From: a virus
IMG/VR virus record: IMGVR_UViG_3300025543_000044
Location: 1-49,347 of that record
Strand: one strand, 5' to 3'
Length of the DNA: 49,347 nt
A program made the translations under genes and the position numbers. Under the pieces are notes generated by a model that made no database searches, was not told the origin of the DNA, and saw nothing but the letters and a program-made list of their open reading frames with translations. Below are positions 7,474 through 40,497 of this stretch, piece after piece; the stretch's first letter is position 1, and every line of letters starts with the position of its first letter.

Positions 7474-7666
7474 TACAATCTGGAATACCCTAATAGAGAA
7501 GTACGAGGTGGAGGTGGAAACTCTACAGAAGCACTTAGCTGGAGGTAGGGCGAAGGATTTTGAGGAGTACAAAGATTTGTGCGGTGCTATTCGGGGTCTA
7601 CGCATCGCTCAAAAATTAACCGACGACCTCTCGCGTGCTTATATGGAAGATGATGATAATGAGTGA
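7466..7666 (+). CDS. Small helical protein after portal (66 aa)
   Basis: The product is not recognised. It is a charged, probably all-helical protein of 66 residues ending in EDDDNE. The frame is open from 7427, but the ATG at 7466 is chosen: it overlaps the portal stop by 8 bases and has a CGGAG site upstream, whereas the earlier start lies deep in the portal gene. Its own stop overlaps the start of the co-chaperonin-like gene. Small helical proteins at this place are common in phages with this portal type; a role in head assembly is an inference only. Confidence 0.65.
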   Translation: MADTIWNTLIEKYEVEVETLQKHLAGGRAKDFEEYKDLCGAIRGLRIAQKLTDDLSRAYMEDDDNE

Positions 7667-8069
7667 GGCAGCAAAGATAGACTTACCTGTAGTGTCAAAA
7701 GAAGCCTTGGAACAGGTTAGCGATGACTCTATGGAGCGAATGATACCTAAACCGGTGGGATACCACCTGCTAATAGCAATGCCGGAAATTGAGGAGACCT
7801 TTGGAGACTCAGGTATCGTCAAAGCCGCAAAGACCGTCCAACACGATACCCTCCTATCTATGATAGGGCTTGTTTTGGATATGGGCGGGCAAGCATACGC
7901 CGATAAGGACCGGTTCCCTACGGGTCCGTGGTGCGAAGTTGGACAATACGTCATGTTCCGAATGAACAGTGGCACGCGATTTAAAGTTGGTGGGCAGGAA
8001 TATCGCCTACTTAATGACGACAGTATCGAAGCTGTCGTTGACGACCCCCGTGGCGTTACACGAGTGTGA
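7659..8069 (+). CDS. GroES-like co-chaperonin
   Basis: The 136-residue product looks like a GroES (Cpn10) fold: PKPVGYHLLIAMPEIEE (30-46) corresponds to the first strand and roof of GroES, SGIVK (51-55) matches the IVL-type tip of the mobile loop that docks on GroEL, and GLVLDMGGQAY (70-80) with GQYVMFRMNSGTRFKV (95-110) match the later strands. A 29-residue N-terminal extension and short C-terminal tail are extra. Phage co-chaperonins such as T4 gp31 replace GroES so that host GroEL can fold the capsid protein; placement between portal and scaffold fits this. The start at 7659 overlaps the previous stop by 8 bases; GGAAG lies upstream. Confidence 0.75.
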   Translation: MSEAAKIDLPVVSKEALEQVSDDSMERMIPKPVGYHLLIAMPEIEETFGDSGIVKAAKTVQHDTLLSMIGLVLDMGGQAYADKDRFPTGPWCEVGQYVMFRMNSGTRFKVGGQEYRLLNDDSIEAVVDDPRGVTRV

Positions 8070-8083
8070 TGGAGTAGAAAGCT

Positions 8084-9076
8084 ATGCCGATGGAAAAGAT
8101 TGAGTTTGAGTTCCCAGATGATGGGGATGAGGCCCAACAAGTTGAAGTAGAGGGTTCCAGTGCTGTTCCTTTGGGGGAAGAACCCAAACCCAAAAAGGAA
8201 GAAGATGAGCTGGAAGTAGAAGTTGTTGACGATACTCCCGAAGCTGACCGTGGTAGGGAACCGTCTGACCCCCCAGAAGATGTTACTGATGACGAGCTTC
8301 AAGATTACTCTGAAAAAGTCCGTAAGCGTATCCAGCATTTTAGTAAGGGGTACCATGATGAGCGCCGGGCCAAAGAGAAAGCGGAACGCGAGCGGGCGGA
8401 GTTAGAGCGGGTTGCCAAGAAACTTTACGACGACAACCAACGGCTAAATACGTCTGTAGGCCAAAGTCAGGCGGCTATATACGATCAGGCGACCAAAGCG
8501 GTAGCTACGGAGTTAGCCAGTGCAAAAGTGGCATACAAAGAAGCCTATGAATCAGGTAGTGCTGACGGGGTACTCGAAGCTCAAGATAGGCTCACTACGG
8601 CACGTATGCGGGAGGAGCAATTAAAGAATATAGGTGCCAAGGCTTTACAACGGCAGACACCTGATGTACAACAAGAGACACAGGCGGAAAAGCCCGCACA
8701 AGCGCCGGTAACTCCGGACAAGAGGTCTCAGGAATGGGCTAAAGAAAATACATGGTTCGGCCAATCCGGTAAGGACGAGATGACCGCCCTTGCGCTTGGG
8801 TACCATACCAAGATGGTGAATGACGGGGTTGACCCAACTAGTGATGATTACTACGAGAAGTTAAACGCTCGTATGCGAACGGTCTTCCCAGAGGAATTTG
8901 GGGGGCAAGAAACAAGGCAAAAAAGGCCAAATGTGGTTGCACCCGCTACGCGGAGCACATCACCTCGCAAGGTGAAACTAACGCAAACACAGGTAGCCAT
9001 TGCCAAACGCCTTGGGGTACCACTAGAGTTGTATGCCAAACAGGTTGCTGAAGATATGAGGAAAGAAAATGGCTGA
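8084..9076 (+). CDS. Capsid scaffolding protein
   Basis: The 330-residue protein should template procapsid assembly from inside and then leave or be degraded. Features seen are a strongly acidic N-terminal third (Glu/Asp/Pro-rich, 1-75), a central long charged helix or coiled coil (about 80-195, with a KAERERAELERVAKKLY stretch), a Gln/Pro linker, and a basic C-terminal helix (about 285-330), the part that usually contacts the capsid protein. Position between portal and major capsid protein is standard. GGAG lies nine bases upstream of the ATG. Its last codons overlap the next gene by 8 bases. Confidence 0.82.
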   Translation: MPMEKIEFEFPDDGDEAQQVEVEGSSAVPLGEEPKPKKEEDELEVEVVDDTPEADRGREPSDPPEDVTDDELQDYSEKVRKRIQHFSKGYHDERRAKEKAERERAELERVAKKLYDDNQRLNTSVGQSQAAIYDQATKAVATELASAKVAYKEAYESGSADGVLEAQDRLTTARMREEQLKNIGAKALQRQTPDVQQETQAEKPAQAPVTPDKRSQEWAKENTWFGQSGKDEMTALALGYHTKMVNDGVDPTSDDYYEKLNARMRTVFPEEFGGQETRQKRPNVVAPATRSTSPRKVKLTQTQVAIAKRLGVPLELYAKQVAEDMRKENG

Positions 9077-9518
9077 AAACAGAATCGCTCGCGGTGCGGA
9101 AACCCGCGAGAAAGATACTCGTAAGAAGTCTTGGGCGCGCCCCGAGCTACTACCGAGTCCCGAACCCGAAGAAGGGTATAAGTACCATTGGGTACGTGTA
9201 GCTACTCTGGGTAACGTTGATGCCATGAATGTCTCCTCAAAATTACGTGAAGGCTGGGTTCCAGTCAGGGCTAAAGACCACCCCGAAATTGAGCTTGTAG
9301 CTATTGAACAAGAACGGTTTAAGGATAATGTGGTTATCGGGGGGTTGATGTTGTGCAAAGCCCCGGTTGAAATGGTGAATGAGCGTAATGAATACTACGA
9401 CCAGCAAGCCAAGTCCCAGATTAGCTCAGTTGACAACAACTTAATGCGCGAAAATGACCCCCGTATGCCCCTGTTTAACGACAGGAAAACGAAGGTTACT
9501 TTCGGGTCTGGAAATTAA
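9069..9518 (+). CDS. Head-module protein upstream of capsid (149 aa)
   Basis: The family is uncharacterised but looks typical of aquatic phages, where it lies just before the capsid genes. The sequence has a basic N-terminus (about 1-22), then WARPELLPSPEPEEGYKYHW, a REGWVPVRAKDHPEIEL segment (60-76), GGLMLCKAP, and a C-terminal NDPRMPLFNDRKTKVTFG stretch. The start has a GAGGAA ribosome binding site and overlaps the scaffold stop by 8 bases. It could be a minor capsid or assembly factor; no enzymatic motif is visible. Confidence 0.72.
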   Translation: MAENRIARGAETREKDTRKKSWARPELLPSPEPEEGYKYHWVRVATLGNVDAMNVSSKLREGWVPVRAKDHPEIELVAIEQERFKDNVVIGGLMLCKAPVEMVNERNEYYDQQAKSQISSVDNNLMRENDPRMPLFNDRKTKVTFGSGN

Positions 9519-10152: not shown

Positions 10153-11055
10153 ATGGCTATTTCAAGAGCACAGCTACTCAAGGAACTCCTGCCGGGGCTT
10201 AACGCGCTGTTTGGCATGGAGTATAAAAAGTACCCGGATGAGCACGCGGCGATTTTCGATACAGAATCGTCTGACCGCTCTTTTGAGGAAGAAACGAAGC
10301 TGTCGGGCTTCGGTTCTGCACCGGTTAAGGCTGAAGGTTCCGCCATCGCGTATGACAACGCGCAGGAAGCATGGACCGCACGCTACACCCACGAGACCAT
10401 CGCAATGGGTTTCTCTGTTACTGAGGAAGCTATCGAGGATAACTTGTACGACTCCCTGTCGTCCCGTTATACGAAGGCGTTGGCACGGGCTATGGCTTAT
10501 ACCAAGCAGGTGAAAGGGGCGGCTATCCTCAATACCGCGTTCACGGCAACCTACGGTGACGGTGTGGCCTTGTGCTCCACTTCACACCCGTTGGTAAGTG
10601 GTGGGGTGAACTCTAATACCCCGGCAGTTGCATCTGATCTGAACGAGACTTCTCTGGAAGCCGCAGTCATTCAGATTTCAGCATGGACGGATGAGCGTGG
10701 TCTCCTGATCGCGGCACGGCCCAAAAAGCTAATCATCCCCCCAGCGTTGCAGTTTGTTGCCACACGCCTGTTGGAAACTGAGCTTCGTGTCGGTACCGCC
10801 GATAACGACCTGAATGCCCTGAAGACTAACGGCTCTATCCCTGACGGGTATACAGTGAACCATTACCTGACGGACACCAACGCTTGGTTCCTCAAAACTG
10901 ACTGTCCTAATGGTCTGAAGCACTTCAAACGTGCCGCACTGACCACTTCTATGGACGGTGATTTTGATACAGGAAACAGCCGCTACAAGGCTCGGGAACG
11001 TTACTCCTTCGGAGTGTCTGACCCGCTGGGTATCTTCGGTTCGCCGGGAGCGTAA
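10153..11055 (+). CDS. Major capsid protein, Mu gpT-like
   Basis: The 300-residue main head subunit presumably adopts the HK97 fold. The sequence resembles the Mu gpT family of major head proteins: an N-terminal helical region, then GFSVTEEAIEDNLYDSLSSR (about 86-105), an AMAYTKQVKGAAILNTAF segment, DGVALCSTSHPLVSGG (about 136-151), and a C-terminal domain with RYKARERYSFGVSDPLGIFG. It has AGGGG before the ATG, follows scaffold and decoration genes and is followed at once by a very strong terminator, as expected for the most abundant structural transcript. Combined with a P22-like portal it suggests a mosaic head module. Confidence 0.85.
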   Translation: MAISRAQLLKELLPGLNALFGMEYKKYPDEHAAIFDTESSDRSFEEETKLSGFGSAPVKAEGSAIAYDNAQEAWTARYTHETIAMGFSVTEEAIEDNLYDSLSSRYTKALARAMAYTKQVKGAAILNTAFTATYGDGVALCSTSHPLVSGGVNSNTPAVASDLNETSLEAAVIQISAWTDERGLLIAARPKKLIIPPALQFVATRLLETELRVGTADNDLNALKTNGSIPDGYTVNHYLTDTNAWFLKTDCPNGLKHFKRAALTTSMDGDFDTGNSRYKARERYSFGVSDPLGIFGSPGA

Positions 11056-11076
11056 TCCTGCTACTTGGGATGTGAG

Positions 11077-11099
11077 AAAGGGGCTTCGGCCCCTTTTTT
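11077..11099 (+). terminator. Strong intrinsic terminator after capsid gene
   Basis: AAAGGGGC (11077-11084), a TTCG tetraloop and GCCCCTTT (11089-11096) form an 8-bp stem running into six T (11094-11099). It lies 21 bases after the major capsid stop and marks the end of the head operon. Confidence 0.95.
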
Positions 11100-11100
11100 G

Positions 11101-11129
11101 TTGACAAGTTATGGGCTGTGAGCTACAAA
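11101..11129 (+). promoter_or_regulatory. Sigma70-type promoter for the tail/accessory block
   Basis: A perfect TTGACA (11101-11106) follows directly after the T run of the capsid terminator; 17 bases later TACAAA (11124-11129) matches 4 of 6 bases of the -10 consensus. It has the same layout as the candidate at 1384-1412. It would restart transcription for the genes from 11223 on, with a leader of about 85 bases. Confidence 0.6.
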
Positions 11130-11222
11130 GTAAGTTCAACTGGGAACATCCAGTTATGGTGACCGACCCAGCGGACGTTTACGAGACACCATAATAAACC
11201 CTTCGTAAAAAGGTAACATGTT

Positions 11223-11432
11223 ATGGGTCAATCTACTTTTTCTGGGCCAGTAGCCGCGACAAACGGTTTTATCCTCCCCACTTATACTGTAGCTACGGCT
11301 CCCGCAGCAAATAGTGTTACTGCGGGCACAATCGTTTATGTATCAAACGGTGAGGCAGGGTCTCCTTGTGTTGCTGTATCTGACGGTACTGATTGGTACG
11401 CAGGTACTGGTGCTGTTATAGCCGCATCCTAA
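11223..11432 (+). CDS. Small virion-type protein (69 aa)
   Basis: A Gly/Ala/Val/Thr-rich, probably all-beta protein. PTYTVATAPAAN followed by AGTIVYVSNGEAGSPCVAVS and DWYAG resembles short domains attached to phage tail fibre and virion proteins. It is the first gene after the terminator and promoter behind the capsid gene. The ATG at 11223 has AAGG nearby. Its stop is followed by a strong AGGAGA site for the next tiny gene. Function is unknown; a small surface or fibre-associated subunit is the most reasonable guess. Confidence 0.6.
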   Translation: MGQSTFSGPVAATNGFILPTYTVATAPAANSVTAGTIVYVSNGEAGSPCVAVSDGTDWYAGTGAVIAAS

Positions 11433-11443
11433 AGGAGAACACT

Positions 11444-11569
11444 ATGACATACGTTCCACCCAGTAAAGAGGAGCTGGCCCGCAGGGGTATTGGTGTTACA
11501 CCGCCAAAAACAACTCCCCCCAAGAAAGCTACGAAACCAAAAACCAAGGTACGGGGGGATAAACCATGA
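11444..11569 (+). CDS. Tiny basic Pro/Lys-rich protein (41 aa)
   Basis: ATG at 11444 with AGGAGA located seven bases upstream opens a 41-codon frame ending in TGA at 11569, which overlaps the ATG of the next gene (ATGA). The N-terminal half (MTYVPPSKEELARRGIGVTP) is followed by a Pro/Lys/Thr tail with three repeats of the kind PPK/KKATKPK. The strong ribosome binding site and stop-start overlap make it a likely real gene despite its size. Function is unknown; such basic tails suggest contact with DNA or an acidic partner protein. Confidence 0.6.
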   Translation: MTYVPPSKEELARRGIGVTPPKTTPPKKATKPKTKVRGDKP

Positions 11570-11871
11570 GCAATTATGACGCTTATGGGACGGTCTCCAC
11601 AGCCACCACAACTGACGAATCCTCCTGCCGGGGGACTGTTACCCTGTCGGCGCACCTGACCTCCGGGTCTGGTACATTGACTTGGCAGTTTAAAGGGATT
11701 GACGGTACGTGGCGGAGTATCTATGGCGGTGCGGACGGCACCACGGCGCAGGCGTTCACAGCTAGCCATATGGTTAACGTGTTATTCGGGGGGGATGTAC
11801 GTGTACGTGGCAGTTCTTCCGGGGGTACATGGGATTGGCAGGTAATTGGTAATTACCGCAGGGATGCGTAA
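11566..11871 (+). CDS. Small beta-type structural protein (101 aa)
   Basis: The 101-residue product is rich in Thr, Ser, Gly, Val and Trp with alternating beta-strand patterns (TVTLSAHLTSGSGTLTWQF, DVRVRGSSSGGTWDWQV). This resembles a single Ig- or carbohydrate-binding-like sandwich domain of the sort used as virion decoration, but no family is recognised. Start at 11566 has GGGGGA upstream and overlaps the previous stop. Its neighbours are other small structural-type genes. Confidence 0.6.
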   Translation: MSNYDAYGTVSTATTTDESSCRGTVTLSAHLTSGSGTLTWQFKGIDGTWRSIYGGADGTTAQAFTASHMVNVLFGGDVRVRGSSSGGTWDWQVIGNYRRDA

Positions 11872-11873
11872 CT

Positions 11874-12452
11874 ATGCCCGCTATTCTGCTGGTCAAGGTC
11901 GCTGACGCACCCGTAGCCGAGTCTCCAACTCGCTGGAAGGGTGGGCAGGTTGTTGACGCATTCTCTGTAGACCATGTGTTTGGTGACCCTGAGCTGCCTG
12001 CGGCTGGTAAGTTCTATCACATCACTATCACAAACCCCGGTATAGGCGTCGATGAGGCCCGAGAATATTTGGAGGAGTGGCGGCACAAGCCCACTTATGA
12101 AGTCCTTGGGCGGCAGGGTAATGTGCGCCGTATCCGGGTGACAAGCAGCATGGTATCTGTCTCTGGTAAAAACGCGTTTGAGCGCGCACCGATTGAGGCG
12201 TTTTTTGGTCGATGGAATGCCACCTATGTATCGCACAACCAAAACTCCTTCACGATGGATGCCGACATTGATGATGAGTATTTTGATGAAGCCAGAGCCG
12301 ATATGGACAAGACCATAATGGATATGCAATATGCCCGCCGCCGATGGTATATCACGCCAGCGGGTATGACATTCTTGGCAAACAACAGCGGCTCGATAGA
12401 GCGCACAGCCTCCCAGATTCAGCCTTTCTTGCGCGACGGGTTATTGGACTGA
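11874..12452 (+). CDS. Unknown protein (192 aa) in virion gene cluster
   Basis: The product is not recognised. The N-terminal half resembles a small alpha/beta protein (MPAILLVKVADAPVAESPTRWKG, DAFSVDHVFG, FYHITITNPGIGVDEAREYL); the second half is charged with a DADIDDEYFDEARADMDK acidic helix and ends in FLRDGLLD. Start ATG has AGGGATG upstream, and the stop overlaps the next ATG (TGATG). Composition suggests a soluble, folded protein, possibly a minor virion component, without a visible enzymatic motif. Confidence 0.6.
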   Translation: MPAILLVKVADAPVAESPTRWKGGQVVDAFSVDHVFGDPELPAAGKFYHITITNPGIGVDEAREYLEEWRHKPTYEVLGRQGNVRRIRVTSSMVSVSGKNAFERAPIEAFFGRWNATYVSHNQNSFTMDADIDDEYFDEARADMDKTIMDMQYARRRWYITPAGMTFLANNSGSIERTASQIQPFLRDGLLD

Positions 12453-25439: not shown

Positions 25440-25459
25440 GACTGCGCGTGAGTCAATAC
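25440..25459 (+). repeat. 20-bp direct repeat, copy 2
   Basis: Second copy of the repeat at 25069-25088. Here its GTG (25448) is the start codon of the next large gene, preceded by a CGGGAG ribosome binding site. The two copies bracket the basic-protein gene. Confidence 0.9.
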
Positions 25460-27316
25460 ACCCCCGAGGAACTTGAGTTCTTCAAGATGATTAACGATAA
25501 CCCAACACAGTGGGGGGATTATGTCGCCTCGCAGACTCCTACTCCTGCCCCCGCCCCTGAAACTAGCCCCTATACACCCGAAGTACTTAACTTCTTTGAG
25601 CAAATAAACGACGACCCTGAAGCGTGGCAGAACTACGTTAATACCCAAAACACATCAGGGGGTGTAACTACACAGGTTGGGCCTGAAGTCACAAACATAG
25701 CACTTCCCGGTAATAGTCCCCCTACTCAAGGCGGCACACAACTAACGCTCCCGCAGTGGATAACTGAAGTGCAGAGAATAAACACTGAATACGACACTGC
25801 GCTAAACCAAGCGTATGGGAAGTACGACAGGAAAAAAGATGCTCGCCAATCGGTGTCCGGGCTTCGTGCCGATCTTGGGAACGAGATTAGCGGCTTGTTT
25901 GGTCAAACGGGGCTTAACCTAGGGGATATATACCAAGACGGGTACCAGCTTGATTTAGGGTTGGGGCAGGGTTTTGTGTACGGTGGCGGTAGTTATGAAA
26001 ATAGCACTATTGGTCGCGCCCCCGTTGGTAGTTACTCTGTTGGTAAAAATATTGATACAGATACTTTTCGGGACACCATATGGCCCACTGTCTCAACAGC
26101 CCTAAACGTAGCTGTACCGGGTTCGGGTACTGTACTGAGTGGGTTGGGGGGAGAACCAGATACTGGTTACGGGGGGTTTAAAACAGCCCTTGGTGCTGTT
26201 GGGGATGCTGTTGGTTCAGCGCAAAATAACAATCAGGAGCGACCCGAAGATGGTTACGAGACAGTTGACCCAACAGCGGGTATGACAGAGGCAGAAAAAT
26301 CCGCATTTGAGATATGGACAAGCGCTACGGACGCGCAACGAGCTGCTGTTATTGCCGGTATGGAAAGACAAACTGCCAACACTGGTAAACCCGGCCAAGT
26401 AGGTGTGCTAGATGACCCAAATGACCTGATAGAACCTTCAGACACTGCGGGAGATATTACTAAGCTACCCGGATTACCTCCACGACCAACGGATGCAGAA
26501 GGAGGCGGTGGTGGGAATGAAAGTAGCGGTGGTACTTCTAGTAACGCTGGGGGTAACACAGACACTGGGGAGGTTGGTGACGACTCCGTGGTGGACTACC
26601 AGATTTGGGAGGCTGTGGGGCGTGCTGGGTCCACTATCCTTCGGGACCGACTAATCAAGGAGTACGAGGACTATACTGGAAAGGCGTACGACCCGGATAA
26701 CGCCCCCAAACCTAACCAGACGGATACTAGTCAAGGTGAGATCGACCCCGACGCTAATGAGGGCACCCCCGAGGAACCCACAGACGACCTACCAGCACCC
26801 TATTACTGGGACTTCGTAGACGGTGAATGGACGCTAAAACAGGGGGATGCTCCCGATGGCACCGATACTGGCACAGATACCGAGAATACAGGTGGTAATG
26901 AAGGAGGTACGGGCGATACGGATACGGGTGGCACTGTTACGGTGCCGACAACTGGGACTGGTGGTACTGGCGGGGGTTCTGGTGGTGGTAATGGTGGTGG
27001 TAATGGTCGTGGTGACGGCGATGGGGATGGGGATGGCGACGGCGACGGCAGTGAGGAACTTATGCGTCTGCTGGGCTTGTTAGGGGTTAGCGGTAGGGGG
27101 GTTATCCCAGCACCAAAAGAAGACAAAGATGAAGATATTGTCCCCTATAATTTCAAGTCCAGATTCTTGGATGCCGCGCAGGAAGCCCGATTTGTACGTC
27201 CGTACGACTCAAAAGAACTTACTGCTAGACACAGTAAGATATTACACGCACTGCAAAATAGTGGTAAATTAAGCAAGAGTGACCGAGACTATATCGGGGC
27301 TTTGCTGGGGGATTGA
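25448..27316 (+). CDS. Probable internal virion protein (622 aa)
   Basis: The GTG start has CGGGAG eight bases upstream. The first 70 residues hold two copies of a module, PEELEFFKMINDNPTQWGDYV and PEVLNFFEQINDDPEAWQNYV, reused twice in the next gene. A middle part with a Gly/Ser-rich and mildly hydrophobic segment (about 215-260) follows, then an extended low-complexity region rich in Gly, Asp, Thr and Asn with a run of (D-G) repeats (about 505-540), and a C-terminal helical domain. There is no enzyme motif. The position, between tail genes and ejection-type proteins, suggests a virion-internal or tail protein. Confidence 0.62.
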   Translation: MSQYTPEELEFFKMINDNPTQWGDYVASQTPTPAPAPETSPYTPEVLNFFEQINDDPEAWQNYVNTQNTSGGVTTQVGPEVTNIALPGNSPPTQGGTQLTLPQWITEVQRINTEYDTALNQAYGKYDRKKDARQSVSGLRADLGNEISGLFGQTGLNLGDIYQDGYQLDLGLGQGFVYGGGSYENSTIGRAPVGSYSVGKNIDTDTFRDTIWPTVSTALNVAVPGSGTVLSGLGGEPDTGYGGFKTALGAVGDAVGSAQNNNQERPEDGYETVDPTAGMTEAEKSAFEIWTSATDAQRAAVIAGMERQTANTGKPGQVGVLDDPNDLIEPSDTAGDITKLPGLPPRPTDAEGGGGGNESSGGTSSNAGGNTDTGEVGDDSVVDYQIWEAVGRAGSTILRDRLIKEYEDYTGKAYDPDNAPKPNQTDTSQGEIDPDANEGTPEEPTDDLPAPYYWDFVDGEWTLKQGDAPDGTDTGTDTENTGGNEGGTGDTDTGGTVTVPTTGTGGTGGGSGGGNGGGNGRGDGDGDGDGDGDGSEELMRLLGLLGVSGRGVIPAPKEDKDEDIVPYNFKSRFLDAAQEARFVRPYDSKELTARHSKILHALQNSGKLSKSDRDYIGALLGD

Positions 27317-27318
27317 TT

Positions 27319-28938
27319 ATGGGTTGGGAAGATATATTCGAGAGTGGGAGAGAAGCTGCCAGTGGTGGGTGGGATTGGCTAACCACGGAAAAAAATGGTT
27401 CCACAGGTATTCAAGACCTACTGACCCTTGGCGGCGGTGCGGCAACTGCTGCGGGTTTATTTGACTCTGACCCACCCAAAATAGGCTATCAGGGTAAAAT
27501 TCCTGAGTACAACGCCATGCAACGAGCGGTAACGCCCAATAGCGATCCTAACCGAATGCCCGGCTCTTACGGGCAACGGTACTTCACAGACATGGTATAC
27601 GCTGGTAGTCCAGAGGAAGAAGCGGCACAGGGCACCGCTTTGGGCAATCAAAGGGCTATGCTAGAACTTGGTAACGCTGCTCAGCGAGACCGTTATGGGC
27701 CTCTCCTTAACAACTTAGGGAGTCTTTACAACAGTAATCGCGCTCCTGTATACGAAGCCCCTGCTGGAGGGATTGGTAATCTACCTTCCGGGGGAATCAA
27801 CGCGGCCTACGCTGGCCCACGCGGGACACGCCCCGCAAGTAGCTTACCCAGTAAAAACAATGATCTAATGGATTTCTACCAGAAGATCAACGACGACCCG
27901 GAAGCGTGGCAGGCGTACTTGGACTCCCAAACTGGTGGCGGTTCTGGTGGCGGTTCTGGTGGCGGTTCTGGTGACGGTTCTGCGGTAGACCCAGCATTTG
28001 CTGCGGCATACAGCGCACTTACTCCTGAGCAAAAGGCCCAGTTTGATGCCGCCACTCCCGAGCAGTGGGCTAATCTTGCACCTACACCCACCAAAAGCGA
28101 GCTGGGGTTAACTGACCGCGCACCGGGTCAAAGCTATAACGACTGGTATCAGACGCTTCCTGAGTACGGCCCTGACTTGCAGAAAGGTGACAAGTATCAG
28201 GATTACACAGGGTTCACCCGATACGCTGGCACTCCTTGGTCACAAGAAGCCCGTGACTTGCGGGATGCCCGTGACATAGCTACCAAGGGAATGTCCAGAG
28301 AAACAGACCAGTTCTATCCTACTTACATTGATGGCAACGGTCGTGAGCGACAGTACGATGGTTCAACATGGAAGGGGCCATTAGGCTCATCCGAGTTCAG
28401 CCGATTTTTGGAGTCTGAGGAAGGGCAGCAGTACAAGGGTGCTGCTAGTGGCTTGTTTGCTCCTAACCCAGACACTCAGGCTGCTGTAGATTGGCAAAAC
28501 CCTGTTGACCAACTCCGGTTAAAGCACATGGGTCTTGACCAAGCCTACGCTGAGAAAATGTGGCCCGACCAACAGACTACCCCCCAGAGCGGCACAAACA
28601 ATGATCTAATGGATTTCTACCAGAAGATCAACGACGACCCGGAAGCGTGGCAGGCGTACGTGGATTCCCAGAACAGTATGGCTATAGGTGGTATGGTCAA
28701 TGGCCCCGGTGACGGTATGTCAGACTCTGTACCCGCTATGATAGAGGGTCAGCAGCCCGCTGCTCTAGCCCGTGACGAGTTTGTAATACCCGCTGACGTT
28801 GTTGGTCATTTAGGGAACGGTAGTACAAATGCTGGTGCCAAAGAGCTTATGGCTATGATGTCGCGAATCCGTAAAGCGCGTACTGGTACGACAGCACAGG
28901 GGAAGCAAATAAACCCCAATAACTTCTTACCTAGTTGA
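27319..28938 (+). CDS. Probable internal virion protein with INDDPEAWQ modules (539 aa)
   Basis: The ATG at 27319 follows the previous stop by two bases and has GGGGGA upstream. It carries two nearly identical modules LMDFYQKINDDPEAWQAY (about 182-199 and 428-445), a Gly/Ser linker (GGGSGGGSGGGSGDGS) after the first, a long polar middle, and a C-terminal part with MAIGGMVNGPGDGMSDSVPA and LARDEFVIPADVVGHLGNG typical of aquatic-phage internal proteins. It probably belongs to the ejected core or tail lumen. The function of the module is unknown. Confidence 0.64.
   Translation: MGWEDIFESGREAASGGWDWLTTEKNGSTGIQDLLTLGGGAATAAGLFDSDPPKIGYQGKIPEYNAMQRAVTPNSDPNRMPGSYGQRYFTDMVYAGSPEEEAAQGTALGNQRAMLELGNAAQRDRYGPLLNNLGSLYNSNRAPVYEAPAGGIGNLPSGGINAAYAGPRGTRPASSLPSKNNDLMDFYQKINDDPEAWQAYLDSQTGGGSGGGSGGGSGDGSAVDPAFAAAYSALTPEQKAQFDAATPEQWANLAPTPTKSELGLTDRAPGQSYNDWYQTLPEYGPDLQKGDKYQDYTGFTRYAGTPWSQEARDLRDARDIATKGMSRETDQFYPTYIDGNGRERQYDGSTWKGPLGSSEFSRFLESEEGQQYKGAASGLFAPNPDTQAAVDWQNPVDQLRLKHMGLDQAYAEKMWPDQQTTPQSGTNNDLMDFYQKINDDPEAWQAYVDSQNSMAIGGMVNGPGDGMSDSVPAMIEGQQPAALARDEFVIPADVVGHLGNGSTNAGAKELMAMMSRIRKARTGTTAQGKQINPNNFLPS
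27855..27918 (+). repeat. 64-bp direct repeat in coding sequence, copy 1
   Basis: Sixty-four bases are identical to 28596-28659, and about 10 more match with few differences. The repeat encodes the INDDPEAWQ module. The identity extends to synonymous positions, so the duplication is recent or maintained by recombination. Confidence 0.93.
28596..28659 (+). repeat. 64-bp direct repeat in coding sequence, copy 2
   Basis: Second copy of the module repeat, 741 bases after copy 1 and in the same reading frame, so recombination between them would delete an in-frame 247-codon segment. Confidence 0.93.
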
Positions 28939-32406: not shown

Positions 32407-35400
32407 ATGTACTCCACAGAAGAATTAAAGAAGGGGTTAAAAGCCGCTGCTGATGCGGGGGATTATGAGTCTGCCAACGAGATAGCAGAACTTCTCGACC
32501 AGCAGCTTAACGATCCGTATATACAACACATGCAGAAGTTTAAGCCCGAAGCTGGCCTGTTGGAAAACATCGGCTCTGGTCTGGGTAAGGGCTTTGTTGG
32601 GATGTTCGAGAGCGCTGCCCTTGGTGGCGCTGCGATGTTCGACGAGGAGACGGAGACCAAGCTGCGGGATATGATCCAGTCCGCTGGCGCTTGGGCCTCC
32701 CCCGAGGGCGGTAACCCTGACGACGTATCCTACCAACTATCCCAAGCCGTAGGTTCTATAGCCGCTGGACTGCCCGCCGCTGCGTTAGGCCCAGTCGCTG
32801 GCCCGCTCGCTGCCGGTGCGTTGTTTATGGGTGCCGGTGCTGGTGAGGCGAGTGAGCGTGCCCGCGCTGCCGGGGCTACGGAAGAAGAACGTACCCGCGC
32901 TGCCCTGCTGGGTATCCCCGTCGGTGCACTGGACATCATCCCCTATGGCCGCATGACCAAGGGGCTTAAGCACCCACTAATCCGAGACCTGTTTGAGAAG
33001 TTCGGCCCCGAGGAAATCAAGGGTATCGGTAGTCGTATCCGCAGCGCGGCCATTACGGGTGGTGTGGAAGCTGCACAGGAATCAGCCAGCGAGGCCGCGC
33101 AGAACCTCATCCAGAAGGGCTATGACCCCACACAGACACTGGGCGAAGGGCTTATTGGTTCCGCTGCTCTGGGTGGTGGCGCAGGTGCTATCGTCCAAGT
33201 GCTGGCTGACCTGTTTATACCGGGTACAGGTAAGGGCGGTAAAACGCCCCCTGAAGACAAAGAGGTTGAGGCGTTTCTGGGGTTTACTCCCGAGGAACAA
33301 GCCGCCCGCGATGAGGCGCAGGCACTGTTAGGTGACCCACAGGCCGACATGCTTCCCGTAGAGTTAGTCGATGCGTTAGAAGCAGAGGCACCAGAGGTAG
33401 TTACTCCAGAACAACAGTACGCACAGATAATGGAGGCTAAGCGGGCTAAAGCGGGTGCTGAGCCAGAGGTAGCAGACCCAGAACAGCTTAAGGCCAATGA
33501 AGAAGCACTGGCAGCACTCGACGTACGTATTGCTGATTTACGTGACAGGGCAAATACGCTAAAAGCGGCAGGTGCGGTAGACGGTGCGGTCCTAGCAGCA
33601 GAAATTAAGCTGGACGAGGCACTTAAAGAGCGCGAAGGGTTGCTAACCAAGGCTCCCCCCACCCCCACAACGCCCCTGTCAGTACCACAAGAACAGGAAC
33701 AAATATCAATAGAAGATGTAATTGATACATCTTTAACTACTGATATAGAACAGATGTACGCCGAAGAAGCTGATGCCAAGGAAACGGCGGATATTAATGC
33801 ACTAATAGCTGCGGAACAACAAGCGGCGGCGGAAGCAGATGCCGCAGAAACCGCCAAAATTGAACAGATGTACGCCGAAGAAACTGCTGCGGAGGAACTC
33901 AAAGCCCAGTCCTCGCAGGAGACATTGGATAACGCCCGCGCTACTGAGCAACAACAGCAGTCTGAAGCGGCCCGGCGAAAAGTTCTTGGCGATGTTATTG
34001 CGGGGAATGAAAACCCCGACCGTAACGTAGTAGCCCGTAACTTCTCAGCGGCTCTTACTGAAGCTGGGTTCGGGCGTCCTGAAGCTACCCCCGCTGAGCT
34101 GGAAGCTATTAAGCGTGCCGTAGACGTTCAGTTTGCTGTGGAGCAGGCCAAACCCATTGCCCCCGCCCCTGTTGCGCCCCCTGCTTCTACCCAGAACGAG
34201 GCAATGGAAGCGGCTATACCCGAGAAGAAGCAGCCTACGGGTCAGAGGCTACTGTTCCCTGAAATTACGCCCAAGGCTCCTCCTGTAGTCGAACGCAGAG
34301 AAGCTGCCGCACCGGAGCGGCCCAACATCCCTATAGACGACGGTCTCCTCAGTCGTATGGGCGTTGCCAAGACCGCTCCGGTGCGTAAGCGTCTGGTAGG
34401 TAAGAACCTCGGTGACGACGTTGATCTGGCGTTCACACAGAAAGAGCTTTTGGCATACGCTGAAAACCCCCGTGTGGCTAAAGCGGCCAAAGAAAACATC
34501 CAGAGCTTCGTAAAAGCCACCCAAGATACCCAGATACCTATGATGGGGCCGCGTGGTGGTATTACTACAGAAGCCAAAGCTAAGGGGGCACCCCGTGGAA
34601 CTGGAAAACCTGTTAGACCCGCCAAGCCTGATGTTAAACCGGCAGGAACTGGAGACAGCGTTCAGGGTACTGGACAGGACAGCAAGCCAAAACCCGCTAA
34701 GCCTAAAGACGCAAGTCCCGCCCGAGCTAAGCCAGCTAAACCCGCAGCAGTGGGAACACCTAGCGATGGTGCTAAACCTGCTAAAACTGGAGCAGTTGAG
34801 CAGCCGGATACACTAGACGTTGAGAGTTATATCACCCGTGCGGAGAAGGAATTGGCCCGTGAGGGCACTGCGGGTATGGACTTAGAACCAGATATTAACG
34901 CATTACGTGAAGCGCTTGAAGAAGTGGCTGAGTCTAACAGGCCCATCGGTAACCAGATTGAAGAAGCTAACGACGTATACGAACGGGAAATAGCGCCTAT
35001 TCGGGACATGGCGGATGCTCGTGAGAAGAAGTTCACGGAAGCACAAGCCGAGTTTGAAAAAACTGGCCCAGAAAAGACCGTAACAGTACCCAGTAAGAAA
35101 GCACTAAAAGAAGGTTACGAGACCCGCAAAAAACTGTGGGAGATGAAGAAGGCGGCAACCAAGTCAGCTAAGGAGACAAAAGATGAAGCAGCCGTGCCAG
35201 AGGTGCGAGAAGGCGAGACAGAAACTACGGGAACTGAAGCAAAGAGTACTCCCAAGCCTGCCGCCAAGCCGAAGAAAACCGCCGCCGAAGAACCCGTAGC
35301 TGGTTACGGTAAGGGCAACAAAGTATTCACGGAAGATCGGGCGAATAAAGCCCGTGAAATGCTGCTTAAAAAGCGGGGTACCCTACGTACCGGGGTTGAC

Positions 35401-38400
35401 CCGGAAATGATGCAGGCGGGTATAGACCTCGCGGGGTTCCATATCGAAGCGGGAGCGCGTCAGTTTGGTGCTTTCACCAAAGCTATGGTAGATGACGTTG
35501 GTGACTGGATTAGGCCATACCTGCGTGGGTGGTATGAAGCTATTAGGTACAGCCCAGAAATATCCCCAGATGTGGCAGCGGAATTGACACCCACTGCGGA
35601 GATAGATTCAGGCGAGAAAGCCCGCGCCGAAGCTGAAGCTGTAGCGGAGGAACCTGTACGTACTTTTGCCAGTGAACCTGCGCGACAGGCGGCGGAGGAT
35701 AATGATGTTACCCTTGAGGAGTTAACTGAACGTGGTTGGGAAGGCACTGGTAGAAATACTAACTGGACCAAACGTGATATAGAAGATTATGTAGCCGTGC
35801 GGTACCGGGATAACGTGACCCGCCCTGCTTCTGGAAAAGGTAAATCTTTAACTGCTGAACAACTTAAGGCAGAAAAGGTCCGTAAAGAGACGGCACCCCC
35901 AAAGGAAGATGCCGCAGCCCGTAGAGCCAAACAGAAGGAACAAGACAAGGCAGATCAAGCGGCGGCTGATAAGGCACCCAAAGGCAAAAGCACTACGTTC
36001 TCTAAGAGTTTAGGTAAGCGACCTTTCGGGTTCCTGAGAACCAAGAAGTACTTCACCGATGCAGACCTACGCAAAATTAAAACCCTGCGGGATGCTGTTT
36101 TCCCCCTCAAGCTCCCACTGGACGCTACTGATGCACGGAAACACGCGCACAAGATCGCGCTCGCTGCCCAAAAGTACCTCTATGACTATAGGGTAGCCGG
36201 GCCTGCTGATGCGTTTGCGGCAGCGGCACATGAAGTTGTGTTTGAGGCACCACAGTATCGTCGCGGTATAGGGTCGTCAGAACAGGAGATAAAGTTCTAC
36301 AGAGGTACGGGTAAAACCCCTGCTAGCATGGTGCTGGAGTGGGCGGAGAACAACCTGAGTGAGGGTGCTGGGAAGTTCATAGAAGAACAGATAGCCCTTA
36401 ATGCCAAAGGTAACGTAGGTATTAAGAACATAACGCGGGGCGACCGGATAGCTGCCCGGATAAAGCGGGAGGAAATACAGGCGGAAGCCATTCTATCTGC
36501 TCTGGATATGATTGGTAAGCTACAGGGCAAACCCAGTAGCAAGACCGAGGATGCCGCGCTTGATGCCGCCCTAGAGAAGTTGGAAGCCGCCAAAACCCGT
36601 GGCGACTCCGATGCTGTTAAGGTACTAAAAACCCAGATCGAACGTATTGAGACTGCGATGTGGCAGAATGCGAGCGGGAGTTCTAAGGACGGGAACAAGA
36701 TACTCAAGTCAGTCCTTAAGAAGTTAGGTGAACTCAACCTAGTTACCGATGCTATCTCGGCGCTGGACGTGCCCCTGCACCCAAGCGTTACCCAGCATCT
36801 GCTTCAGGGCAACCTGAAAGACGCGCTCAATGCGATGTCCCTTATCGGCCCCCATACCGAGGTGCGTAAGTTAGCCCGCAAGCTAACCGACAACATTGGG
36901 GAAACCAAGGTCGAGCTGGTAGACAACCTGAAGAACGCCGCTGGTAAGTCAGTGGCAGGGCTGTTTGACCCCAAGACCAACACGATCAAGCTGGACAAGG
37001 GTGCCGCTAACTCTACGCACGTTCTCCTGCACGAGTCTATGCACGCTGTAACGTCTCATACGCTGGCTAACAAGGGGCACCCCTTAACTATAAAGCTGAA
37101 CCGCCTGTATGAAGAAATAAAAGACGAGCTGGACAGCTATTATGGTGCCGAGTCCCTTGATGAGTTTGTGGCGGAGGCGTTCAGTAATCCGGAATTTCAA
37201 GAAAAACTGGCATCTATCTTCGGGCGTACCAAAGAGAACCAGACTGCCCTACGCCGACTTTGGGATACCATCAAGCACTTCGTCCAGAACCTCGTCGGTT
37301 ACAAGACCGTGGACAACACCAGCTATTCTGAGTTCGGTGACATGATTGAGGGGCTGATGGGTACCGCCCCGGAGACCCGGTTTGCTGGGGAACTTGCCCT
37401 GACTATAGCCGAAGGCAATGCCGAGGAGATTTTCAAAAAGGCGGGTAAGGCATACCGGCAGGGTGTGACCAAGTTGACTCGGGGTAGCCCTGAGTGGACC
37501 CGCGTTATTGACAAGGTAGCAGCGTTCTTTACGCGGGGTTTGCCGGATAACCTAACCCGTGCATTCTGGGGGTTCATGCCGTCACAGGCTATGGCCGATA
37601 CCATGATAGCTATGGGGTTCCCCGAGGAGATTTTTGATCTCCATAAGTTGCTTGAGAAACAGCACGCGGATATGCAAGCGGTTGATAACGGGCTGGACGC
37701 AGTAAAAGCTGGGCTTAGTAAGTGGCTTAAAGATAACCCAGAGAAGAAGGAACTATTCGACAAGCTCACAACCGACAGTAGTATTAAGCAGGTAGACCCG
37801 TCGCGTGGTGAGAAGTATTACAAAGACAGGGCAACATCCAACAACGCTACCGAGTGGGACCAGAAACGGTACGAGGACTTCAAAGAACTGAAGCCCCGCT
37901 GGGATGCCTTAAGAGAAGACGGGCAGAAGCAGTATAAGCTGTTACGCGACTCCTATAAGCGGCTTTACGAAGAACTGCGGGAAGCGGTGTTGTCTAAAGT
38001 TAAATCCGTGACTGACGATGAAGTTACTATTACTAAGTTACGGACTGAAATATTCGAGAAGATATTCAACGAGAACCTGATCGAACCCTACTTCCCGCTG
38101 ACTAGGGAAGGTGAATACTGGATAGCGTTTAACGCCTACCCACCCGGCAAACCTGCGGAGCGGGTTAAGATGGCGTTTGAGAACACCTACGCCCGTGACC
38201 GGTTTGTAGACGAAGTGCTTAAAACTGAGCCTAACATCGAACGTAAAGATGGTAGTGCCGTTATAGAGTACGAGTCCAGACCACAGAACTTCAAACTGGA
38301 TAAGGCACCACCTACATCGTTCGTAAACGACGCGATTAAGCTGATTACTACCAACGCTAAGAAGAACGACGATGGTTCTATGAGCGATGAGACTAAAACT

Positions 38401-40497
38401 ACTTTGGAGCAGTTAACCCGGTTGTTCGTTGAGTCCCTGCCAGAGTCCTCTTACTCACGGTCTCTGCAACGCCGTAAAGATTACGGGGGTTACACAGAGG
38501 ATGCGATAATAGGTTTTGAGCGCCGTGCGTATGACTTGGGTCGCCAAGGGGTGCAGACGCGCTTTGGGCAGACGCTCCGTAAGCAGTATGAGCAGATACT
38601 GGAGAAAATAGAGGCAGACCCGAAACTCAATAAACACCCCCGTAAGGATGCTGTTAAAGATGAGTTAGGTAAACGCGTGCAGTTTGCCGTCGGTGACAAC
38701 AACAGTGGGTTCGACCGGTGGGGACGTAGGCTTAACCGTATAGCGTTTACAGGTACTATTGGTTTTAACCCGTCGTCGGCTATTGTTAACCTGACGCAAA
38801 TACCGATGGTGGTCATGCCGTTCTTGGCGGGCAAAACAGACTACGCTACGGCCTATGCAGCATTACGTACAGCGGGTAAGTTGTTTACCGGTGCTGGGAA
38901 CGAGCATAAGATACCCGTATACGGTACCGAGGAGGAGTCGTACCTCGTAGAGGCTAATCGGTTTGTCCCGTCTATAGACAACTACTACGAAACGGAGTTT
39001 GGTAAGAAAGAAGTACTTAGCGGGAAAGATAAGGGGAAAATGGTCATTGACCGGGGTAATAGCAAGCTGAAGCTCCGTACTGATATGGACTTTGACCCCG
39101 ATGAGATTGTATGGCGCGGCTGGAAAGAAAACGGTGTACGTAAAGAGTTCACTAAAGCAGAGTTACTAGAAGAACTTACACCCTTCGTCGAGGCAATACT
39201 GAGTAGGGGACTGCTAAGCCGGTCGTTCTTCTACGATTCTCTGGGTGCCGAAACCTCGGGTAAGAGTAAAGACTTCGGGGACAAAATGAGCGCGTGGGGC
39301 GGGTTTATGTTCCACGCCGCCGAGCGTATGAACCGCCAAACGGCCCTCACTGCTTCTTATCTTAACGAGATGGTGCGCCTGAAAACAAACCCCATAGCTT
39401 CCAAAGGAGAAGTCGGGCTTACCCACGCGGAGCAGCAGAAGTTGGCGGCAGAGAACGCCATGTACGACACCCAGCAGACCAACGGTGGTGCGGTATTGGA
39501 TACCACAGCACGTTACGCACAGAACGGGCTTGGTCGCGTAGCTATGATGTACAAGATATTTGGCCTCCAGATGTACTACACCCAAGGCAAGTTACTCGTG
39601 CAGGCGCTTGGTGCTGAAAAAGACCCTGTGTTAAGGAGTCAGGCTAGGGCGCAGCTAGCGCTCATACAGGCGCATGTAGTGGCTATCGCCGGGGTAAGTG
39701 GCCTAACAGCTTACGGTATGCTCTCCAGTTTGTTTGGTATGTTCGATGACGATGATGAACTGGATACCGATAGCCGTTGGCGTACAGCTATGGGGGAGAC
39801 TGCATACAAAGGCGGTATTAACGCCCTGACGCAGTTGTTAGGTGGTGAGGGCGTTGACGTATCCAGCAGGGTGGGCCTGTCGCACTTGTTAATTGGCAGT
39901 AACCGGTACGACTTTGACCCGTCTGCGGAAAAGACCATCGTCAAGACGTTGGGTGGCCCTGCATACGGCTACTTATCCCAAGCACTGTTCCGTGGCGTGC
40001 CCGACATATGGGAGGGGGAGTACCAGCGTGGTATTGAGAACGTCCTACCTGCTGCCTTCCGTAATGCTGCAAAGGCTACGTTCCGCTACGGTCCAGAGGG
40101 TGCCAATACCCGCCGGGGAGACCCCATTATGGGGGAAATGGGCGTAGGTTTGCTTGCTGCCCAGTTCCTAGGCTTCGCACCCGCAGAATACACCCGGAAT
40201 CAGGAGCGCAACCAAGTTCTGAAGGGTATCGACCGTGCGGTTAACGAGGACCGCTCCATGCTTACCCGTAAGCTGTACATCGCTATGCGTATGGGGGATA
40301 CGATGGGGGTGCAGGAACAGTATAAGAAGATATCGGACTTTAACAAGAAACACCCGAACTTCAGGCTGGACCCGAAATCTATCAAAGCCTCACTGAAGCA
40401 GCATATGAAAACGTCGCAGAACATGCACAACGGGGTGCTGTTCTCGCCCAAGATGCGGGCAACGCTTGAGCAGTTAGGTACAGGTTGGGATAATTAA
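32407..40497 (+). CDS. Giant polyvalent internal virion protein with zincin motif (2,696 aa)
   Basis: The largest protein here has several layers. Residues about 115-180 and 248-270 are Gly/Ala-rich hydrophobic segments; 320-960 is low-complexity Ala/Glu/Lys/Pro; 975-1045 resembles a domain seen in large phage and plasmid polyvalent proteins (DLAGFHIEAGARQFGAFTKA). At 1542-1546 the motif HESMH (HExxH) with DEFVAEAF (1585-1592) looks like a zinc metalloprotease site. Residues about 2120 (FNPSSAIVNLTQIPMV) and 2422-2450 are hydrophobic, and the C-terminus is helical. It probably is packed in the head, ejected first and helps DNA cross the envelope; protease targets are unknown. It ends at the convergence hairpin. 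Confidence 0.75.
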   Translation: MYSTEELKKGLKAAADAGDYESANEIAELLDQQLNDPYIQHMQKFKPEAGLLENIGSGLGKGFVGMFESAALGGAAMFDEETETKLRDMIQSAGAWASPEGGNPDDVSYQLSQAVGSIAAGLPAAALGPVAGPLAAGALFMGAGAGEASERARAAGATEEERTRAALLGIPVGALDIIPYGRMTKGLKHPLIRDLFEKFGPEEIKGIGSRIRSAAITGGVEAAQESASEAAQNLIQKGYDPTQTLGEGLIGSAALGGGAGAIVQVLADLFIPGTGKGGKTPPEDKEVEAFLGFTPEEQAARDEAQALLGDPQADMLPVELVDALEAEAPEVVTPEQQYAQIMEAKRAKAGAEPEVADPEQLKANEEALAALDVRIADLRDRANTLKAAGAVDGAVLAAEIKLDEALKEREGLLTKAPPTPTTPLSVPQEQEQISIEDVIDTSLTTDIEQMYAEEADAKETADINALIAAEQQAAAEADAAETAKIEQMYAEETAAEELKAQSSQETLDNARATEQQQQSEAARRKVLGDVIAGNENPDRNVVARNFSAALTEAGFGRPEATPAELEAIKRAVDVQFAVEQAKPIAPAPVAPPASTQNEAMEAAIPEKKQPTGQRLLFPEITPKAPPVVERREAAAPERPNIPIDDGLLSRMGVAKTAPVRKRLVGKNLGDDVDLAFTQKELLAYAENPRVAKAAKENIQSFVKATQDTQIPMMGPRGGITTEAKAKGAPRGTGKPVRPAKPDVKPAGTGDSVQGTGQDSKPKPAKPKDASPARAKPAKPAAVGTPSDGAKPAKTGAVEQPDTLDVESYITRAEKELAREGTAGMDLEPDINALREALEEVAESNRPIGNQIEEANDVYEREIAPIRDMADAREKKFTEAQAEFEKTGPEKTVTVPSKKALKEGYETRKKLWEMKKAATKSAKETKDEAAVPEVREGETETTGTEAKSTPKPAAKPKKTAAEEPVAGYGKGNKVFTEDRANKAREMLLKKRGTLRTGVDPEMMQAGIDLAGFHIEAGARQFGAFTKAMVDDVGDWIRPYLRGWYEAIRYSPEISPDVAAELTPTAEIDSGEKARAEAEAVAEEPVRTFASEPARQAAEDNDVTLEELTERGWEGTGRNTNWTKRDIEDYVAVRYRDNVTRPASGKGKSLTAEQLKAEKVRKETAPPKEDAAARRAKQKEQDKADQAAADKAPKGKSTTFSKSLGKRPFGFLRTKKYFTDADLRKIKTLRDAVFPLKLPLDATDARKHAHKIALAAQKYLYDYRVAGPADAFAAAAHEVVFEAPQYRRGIGSSEQEIKFYRGTGKTPASMVLEWAENNLSEGAGKFIEEQIALNAKGNVGIKNITRGDRIAARIKREEIQAEAILSALDMIGKLQGKPSSKTEDAALDAALEKLEAAKTRGDSDAVKVLKTQIERIETAMWQNASGSSKDGNKILKSVLKKLGELNLVTDAISALDVPLHPSVTQHLLQGNLKDALNAMSLIGPHTEVRKLARKLTDNIGETKVELVDNLKNAAGKSVAGLFDPKTNTIKLDKGAANSTHVLLHESMHAVTSHTLANKGHPLTIKLNRLYEEIKDELDSYYGAESLDEFVAEAFSNPEFQEKLASIFGRTKENQTALRRLWDTIKHFVQNLVGYKTVDNTSYSEFGDMIEGLMGTAPETRFAGELALTIAEGNAEEIFKKAGKAYRQGVTKLTRGSPEWTRVIDKVAAFFTRGLPDNLTRAFWGFMPSQAMADTMIAMGFPEEIFDLHKLLEKQHADMQAVDNGLDAVKAGLSKWLKDNPEKKELFDKLTTDSSIKQVDPSRGEKYYKDRATSNNATEWDQKRYEDFKELKPRWDALREDGQKQYKLLRDSYKRLYEELREAVLSKVKSVTDDEVTITKLRTEIFEKIFNENLIEPYFPLTREGEYWIAFNAYPPGKPAERVKMAFENTYARDRFVDEVLKTEPNIERKDGSAVIEYESRPQNFKLDKAPPTSFVNDAIKLITTNAKKNDDGSMSDETKTTLEQLTRLFVESLPESSYSRSLQRRKDYGGYTEDAIIGFERRAYDLGRQGVQTRFGQTLRKQYEQILEKIEADPKLNKHPRKDAVKDELGKRVQFAVGDNNSGFDRWGRRLNRIAFTGTIGFNPSSAIVNLTQIPMVVMPFLAGKTDYATAYAALRTAGKLFTGAGNEHKIPVYGTEEESYLVEANRFVPSIDNYYETEFGKKEVLSGKDKGKMVIDRGNSKLKLRTDMDFDPDEIVWRGWKENGVRKEFTKAELLEELTPFVEAILSRGLLSRSFFYDSLGAETSGKSKDFGDKMSAWGGFMFHAAERMNRQTALTASYLNEMVRLKTNPIASKGEVGLTHAEQQKLAAENAMYDTQQTNGGAVLDTTARYAQNGLGRVAMMYKIFGLQMYYTQGKLLVQALGAEKDPVLRSQARAQLALIQAHVVAIAGVSGLTAYGMLSSLFGMFDDDDELDTDSRWRTAMGETAYKGGINALTQLLGGEGVDVSSRVGLSHLLIGSNRYDFDPSAEKTIVKTLGGPAYGYLSQALFRGVPDIWEGEYQRGIENVLPAAFRNAAKATFRYGPEGANTRRGDPIMGEMGVGLLAAQFLGFAPAEYTRNQERNQVLKGIDRAVNEDRSMLTRKLYIAMRMGDTMGVQEQYKKISDFNKKHPNFRLDPKSIKASLKQHMKTSQNMHNGVLFSPKMRATLEQLGTGWDN

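Follow-up and report, generated by a model that had tools for sequence, protein, structure and literature searches.

In cohesin-dockerin type scaffolding, small repeated docking units borne by several proteins engage a single scaffold. Fragment sharing between phage proteins has been well surveyed (PMC10684548), and the main text of that survey contains neither the term 'ejection' nor the term 'internal virion'. Among podovirus ejection proteins, a peptidoglycan-hydrolase domain may reside in the homologue of gp16 or in that of gp15, and the domain of T7 gp16 has been found in a gp15 homologue (PMC8954989); phage polyvalent proteins, in turn, have been placed near late virion genes, with injection predicted for them (PMC5512222). 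Here we describe a 23-residue module present in four copies in two adjacent proteins, P0001 and P0002, from an uncultured virus of bacteria, the single virus record IMGVR_UViG_3300025543_000044, analysed over its whole stretch of 49,347 nucleotides (positions 1-49,347; hereafter the window). The module belongs to a recurrent feature, namely a pair of genes whose small helical units undergo exchange and duplication while their protein sequence is selected. Lineage-specific small modules common to one fixed pair of neighbours found no description in the open-access literature searched.

The upstream partner P0001 (25448..27316, plus strand, 622 residues) carries two copies of 23 codons each close to its N-terminus, copy 1a at 25466..25534 (plus strand, with FFKMINDNPTQWGDYV within it) and copy 1b at 25580..25648 (plus strand, FFEQINDDPEAWQNYV). 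Within the downstream partner P0002 (27319..28938, plus strand, 539 residues) the copies lie mid-protein, copy 2a beginning at residue 182 (27862..27930, plus strand, FYQKINDDPEAWQAYL) and copy 2b at residue 429 (28603..28671, plus strand, FYQKINDDPEAWQAYV), the latter directly 5' of the conserved C-terminal part. The module is acidic, not basic, and conserves an IND-P-W core. All four copies match exactly the motif proposed in a first-pass annotation, which had placed two copies in each protein, those of P0001 at the protein start and those of P0002 sharing 64 identical bases; each of these points is borne out, and the exact run between the 2a and 2b regions extends over 64 bases from 27855 and 28596. 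A 75-nt direct repeat (27855..27929 and 28596..28670, both plus strand) is 97% identical between its two copies, so that 2a and 2b look like the products of a recent duplication, and the spacing from 2a to 2b is 741 nt, exactly 247 codons, in frame. Comparison of P0001 with P0002 by BLASTP recovers the modules at E = 4e-8 and 5e-7 and, outside them, nothing but short or low-complexity matches.

The older copies have diverged far at the DNA level. Between 1a and 1b the proportion of synonymous differences (pS) is 0.99 and that of nonsynonymous differences (pN) is 0.30, with 12 of 23 residues identical against a neutral mean of 6.2; none of 2,000 simulations reaches 12. Because the synonymous sites of this pair are saturated and 12 of 23 residues are nevertheless kept, the protein sequence is under selection. 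Neutral simulations match the observed identity in 0 of 2,000 trials for the partner copies of each of two related loci, L022 and L131, and in 3 of 2,000 for copy 1b against the module of L005, a 4.3-kb contig.

Sharing of segments is concentrated on this gene pair across related loci. These loci were retrieved through the neighbouring protein P0003 (28949..30019, plus strand; best 80 of 195 confirmed candidates) and, in a second retrieval, through a family alignment (best 80 of 150 confirmed loci). A P0002-like frame is found in 163 loci, 121 after dropping identical last 150 residues, and 113 of these have an upstream frame. When each P0002-like protein is searched against those frames of its locus that lie on the same strand and span 100 residues or more (1,070 frames, E<0.01, low complexity masked), matches arise in four loci (the window, L022, L108 and L131), always with the immediate upstream neighbour. 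An all-against-all comparison of 2,994 same-strand protein pairs from the 121 unique loci returns five pairs that share a segment, four of them a P0002-like protein and its upstream neighbour, corresponding to 4/113 such pairs versus 1 of about 2,880 others (Fisher p 9e-6 for the excess, a value that ignores shared ancestry). Likewise, own partners match in 4/113 cases and mismatched partners in 11/12,656 (E<0.01), eight of the 11 stemming from two fused proteins and three from module matches.

Three unrelated module families account for these cases: the window module; a second family of VTPEQVAxATG type, 50-59 residues long, in L022 and L108; and a third of NPDxQLAEAQ type, 48 residues long, in L131, whose upstream protein bears the second and third families together. 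A profile of the second family (seven rows from L022, L106, L108 and L109) gives scores below 1e-3 only for P0002-like proteins and upstream proteins within the set of frames searched, its matches outside the profile rows lying in upstream proteins of L131 and L144 and in P0002-like proteins of L117, L115 and L124, with duplicate or near-duplicate records. Because the second family occupies the N part in L109 and the position before the C part in L108, in orthologous proteins, module position is not fixed. Additionally, in 2 of the 121 loci the two genes appear to be fused, upstream-type sequence preceding the N and C parts of P0002 in an apparent single frame of the contig sequence (L133, 3806-6586, 927 codons; L173, 1213-4206, 998 codons), which suggests that the proteins work together. 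The proposal in the first-pass annotation that the module is shared between partners and mobile is thereby upheld, both by this concentration on one gene pair and by the differing sites of the second family, to which the cassette described below adds a further case.

The P0002 family combines a variable middle with conserved flanks. The N part (residues 1-175, 27319..27843, plus strand) and the C part (residues 451-539, 28669..28935, plus strand) are matched by 78 and 81 open reading frames, respectively, among 6,705 searched, and in the same set the window and L005 alone match the middle (residues 206-425). Anything from about 0 to 563 residues separates the conserved parts in related proteins, and 275 do so in the window. 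The window insert opens with module 2a and a Gly/Ser linker, continues with a third helical hairpin, predicted at residues 225-250 (27991..28068, plus strand) and perhaps related to the module in shortened form, and ends with a cassette of 169 codons and module 2b. The cassette (507 bp, 28069..28575, plus strand) and L005 137-643 have 95.5% DNA identity; identity ends abruptly at both edges, and in the regions compared the window and L005 have no further extended DNA match. Its ratio of nonsynonymous to synonymous substitution rates (dN/dS) is about 0.56, from 7.5 synonymous and 15.5 nonsynonymous changes. In L005 the cassette stands directly after a module copy, and it is this sharp-edged segment beside a module that has moved between phages. 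Because the L005 module is merely 52-55% identical in DNA to the four window copies and the cassette 95.5%, cassette and module have separate histories. Three records carrying the same P0002 match (OQ594354, OL906435 and PP438419), each of 65,014 bases and bearing three phage names with differing stated hosts, may represent one genome deposited three times. A P0002-like/P0003-like gene pair is also carried by a cultured relative, Caulobacter phage GB2A.

The window module itself is rare. A DNA scan of 2.9 million viral contigs with the strict pattern [FY]xxINDxPxxWxxY returns 15 stretches, and L005 provides the only related-looking protein and the sole further convincing copy; the remaining matches fall in short or unrelated frames, seven being copies of one unrelated protein. 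L007, retrieved via the pattern itself, gives a profile E of 0.0039 with 14 of 23 positions aligned, and its protein is otherwise dissimilar. A variant pattern yields five stretches in the viral collection, none related on inspection. Over 10,426 frames of the family loci, a set that leaves out L006-L019 and L100-L104 as retrieved by the pattern alone, a five-row module profile scores clearly in the four copies and L005 alone. Collectively, two protein scans and two pattern scans lead to the single related contig L005; P0001 as a protein-scan query returns no related contig, and the two-module region finds no match by tblastn in 50,697 phage records. A widely conserved phage motif is accordingly rejected for the window module, the pattern and protein scans having yielded L005 alone as a related contig. 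The first-pass annotation had raised the prospect of a common low-complexity pattern lacking conservation in related phages: the low-complexity artefact is rejected, as the strict motif is rare and is found by BLASTP despite low-complexity filtering, but among the fetched related loci the window module is not conserved either, L005 apart. A cellular origin is also rejected, since the scan of a genome collection for cellular carriers gave two matches, both in frames of 26-34 codons and judged to be chance. A further stretch, LTQDDLEFFEEIGQDPAEF, resembles the window module in the upstream proteins of L061, L093 and L096, which belong to the same upstream family, at a non-significant profile E of 42. 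Of 2,030 frames, the one with the L061 stretch ranks next after the true members, with a composition-driven-looking match scoring nearly equal, and the regular expression that selects it was written after the stretch had been noticed.

Structure prediction places helical hairpins at the modules. In the P0002 model, computed with 49 aligned homologues, the mean predicted local distance difference test score (pLDDT) is 62.7 and the predicted template modelling score (pTM) is 0.30; module 2a is predicted as a two-helix hairpin (176-192/194-205, pLDDT about 81-87), as is module 2b (428-439/441-454, pLDDT about 79-84), and the third hairpin reaches pLDDT 79-91, while the stretches between modules are poorly predicted. 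P0001 yields low-confidence helices at 6-17 and 19-28 (copy 1a) and at 44-55 and 57-69 (copy 1b). No module-to-module arrangement is readable from the models. Foldseek against viral models returns query template modelling (TM) scores of 0.10 or less among the 50 matches listed, and solved structures give weak matches alone (E 0.0037 or worse), judged to reflect linker or composition.

The explanation we favour, at about even chances, is that the modules are interchangeable helical-hairpin docking units that join partner virion proteins, probably ejected ones, one to another or onto a surface they share. P0001 and P0002 would be partner virion-associated proteins, most likely within the set ejected with the DNA, and each module would fold as a helix-turn-helix hairpin between flexible linkers. 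Such hairpins may dock the two proteins mutually or side by side on the portal, the core or the giant ejected protein; they would be interchangeable between lineages, with copy number providing avidity, and the variable middle of P0002 would be an insertion site for modules and larger cassettes. Because near-identical, in-frame module copies bracket the insert, recombination could gain or lose the cassette and leave the gene unbroken. Confinement to this one pair, repetition of the copies, flexible linkers and gene fusion point to this explanation because docking of partner virion proteins accounts for all of them. The further proposal of the first-pass annotation, that the module may set assembly or dock both proteins on one target, is plausible, and the predicted hairpins and the selection on the protein sequence agree with it. 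A bolder version, which we regard as rather improbable, sees a matched key in which each lineage equips both partners with the same replaceable hairpin for recognition of its own kind or of a lineage-specific scaffold; the pair would be re-keyed by a swap in both genes, and the in-frame repeats of P0002 would act as a switch for loading or dropping cassettes.

Selection on the modules, their mobility and the partnership of the pair are supported, and several points weigh against going further to docking. Binding by the module is something we infer, and we likewise infer the virion location and ejection of P0001 and P0002, from gene order and the neighbour with an LPD39 domain. The P0002 model is confident only in part, as its pTM indicates, and the P0001 model, folded without an alignment, is poor (mean pLDDT 38). 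By profile, the window module occurs in no fetched family locus except L005, the others carrying other modules or none, and 109 of the 113 neighbouring pairs share no segment at E<0.01. Since L022 and L108 carry one module family, the cases of sharing count as three independent ones rather than four, and three independent families in 113 loci form a modest base. Constraint is less clear for 1b versus 2b, where 91 of 2,000 simulations attain the observed identity, and this pair is not convincing by itself for selection. Finally, in L067 the upstream protein has a segment in common with a protein three genes off; it comprises 22 residues at 77% identity, in frames 5190-9098 and 10762-12120.

We consider it unlikely that the modules are a functionless by-product of recombination, in which disordered Gly/Pro-rich stretches accept insertions and neighbouring genes swap segments through proximity. 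The variable middle of the related proteins, the Gly/Ser and Pro linkers adjoining the modules, the 97% identity of 2a and 2b and the recent movement of the cassette would all fit such a process; it is harder to reconcile with old copies that kept residues though their synonymous sites are saturated, or with sharing that falls on the P0002/neighbour pair so much more often than on other pairs. Distinctly unlikely is a non-viral target, with the module of both proteins attaching to a single component of the host or envelope as the DNA enters. Module families that differ among related phages, as host-facing parts would, the dN/dS of the cassette and the finding that phage domain shuffling is strongest in host-facing proteins (PMC10684548) speak for it; against it, the genome-collection scan, with its two tiny-frame matches, identified no cellular protein bearing the module, although a target need not share sequence with its ligand.

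Two further explanations receive still less weight. That the modules bind nucleic acid, the proteins perhaps lying against packaged DNA and one alternative family looking like a DNA-binding helix-turn-helix, appears very unlikely. In its favour, one module of the P0002-like protein of L108 is covered by a sub-threshold match (E 0.011) to the winged helix of DprA, and its sequence resembles helix-turn-helix motifs, but the window proteins have no such match and their module is acidic with an IND-P-W core. Descent of P0001 and P0002 from a common ancestor, with the module as a remnant in diverged paralogues, is hardly tenable; the proteins are adjacent and have the module in common, yet the remaining matches between them are short or of low complexity, the module is N-terminal in one and central in the other, and the family cores differ.

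The window has recognisable terminase, portal and capsid genes as well as tail-type genes, and these are followed by P0001, P0002, P0003, P0004 (30022-32406) and a giant protein of 2696 residues (32407..40497, plus strand) with an LPD39 domain, a large polyvalent protein domain (PF18858, E 2.1e-12; 47.6 bits, above the curated cut-off of 27). The position of the pair between the tail-type genes and this giant protein is the sole feature bearing on packaging or ejection. P0001 consists of the two N-terminal modules, a Pro/Ala linker, Gly/Asp-rich stretches and a C-terminal family motif, which a regular expression detects in 82 of 113 upstream neighbours. Its PHROGs matches cover the C-terminal Gly/Asp-rich stretches and are uninformative on family; P0002 has no PHROGs match, and neither protein has an informative family match in PHROGs or Pfam. 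The upstream protein of L109 is present as a fragment (2-727), most of which is taken up by a Pro-Thr dipeptide run of great length. Separately, a motif [AS]xGGx[VIAL] (AAGGIVAF, ASGGIVGF, YAQGGLASL) recurs around residue 455 of P0002, in P0004 and in related loci, being present in 103/120 P0002-like, 95/111 P0004-like and 78/114 upstream proteins and in 51/281 other proteins, by a regular expression picked after the motif was noticed.

Set beside known systems, the pair recalls each in part. Like the podovirus ejection proteins gp14, gp15 and gp16 of T7, these are adjacent, highly variable proteins (PMC8954989); they differ in sharing short repeats rather than an enzyme domain, and they show no similarity to known ejection protein families in PHROGs, Pfam or solved structures. 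The likeness to polyvalent proteins lies in the giant downstream neighbour with LPD39, P0001 and P0002 themselves having no polyvalent-protein domain in Pfam. As in cohesin-dockerin scaffolding, their small repeated units would bind a single scaffold; Pfam, searched with an E threshold of 1, returns no dockerin or cohesin match in P0001-P0004, and a receptor domain was not identified. With domain mosaicism the pair has in common a fragment present in otherwise unrelated proteins and a recent exchange between genomes (PMC10684548), the BLASTP match of P0001 and P0002 being restricted to the modules besides short or low-complexity stretches and the 507-bp cassette being the only extended DNA match to L005. 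Mosaicism as surveyed there is strongest in receptor-binding proteins, endolysins and polymerases (PMC10684548), whereas here it concerns one genome, two fixed neighbours and very small units that vary by lineage. Few parts of phages are as poorly conserved and as poorly understood as virion proteins of the ejection type, and recurrent sharing of small modules in a fixed gene pair offers a sequence-level handle on assembly partners, through a shuffling inside one genome, between partners, that surveys of large domains would overlook.

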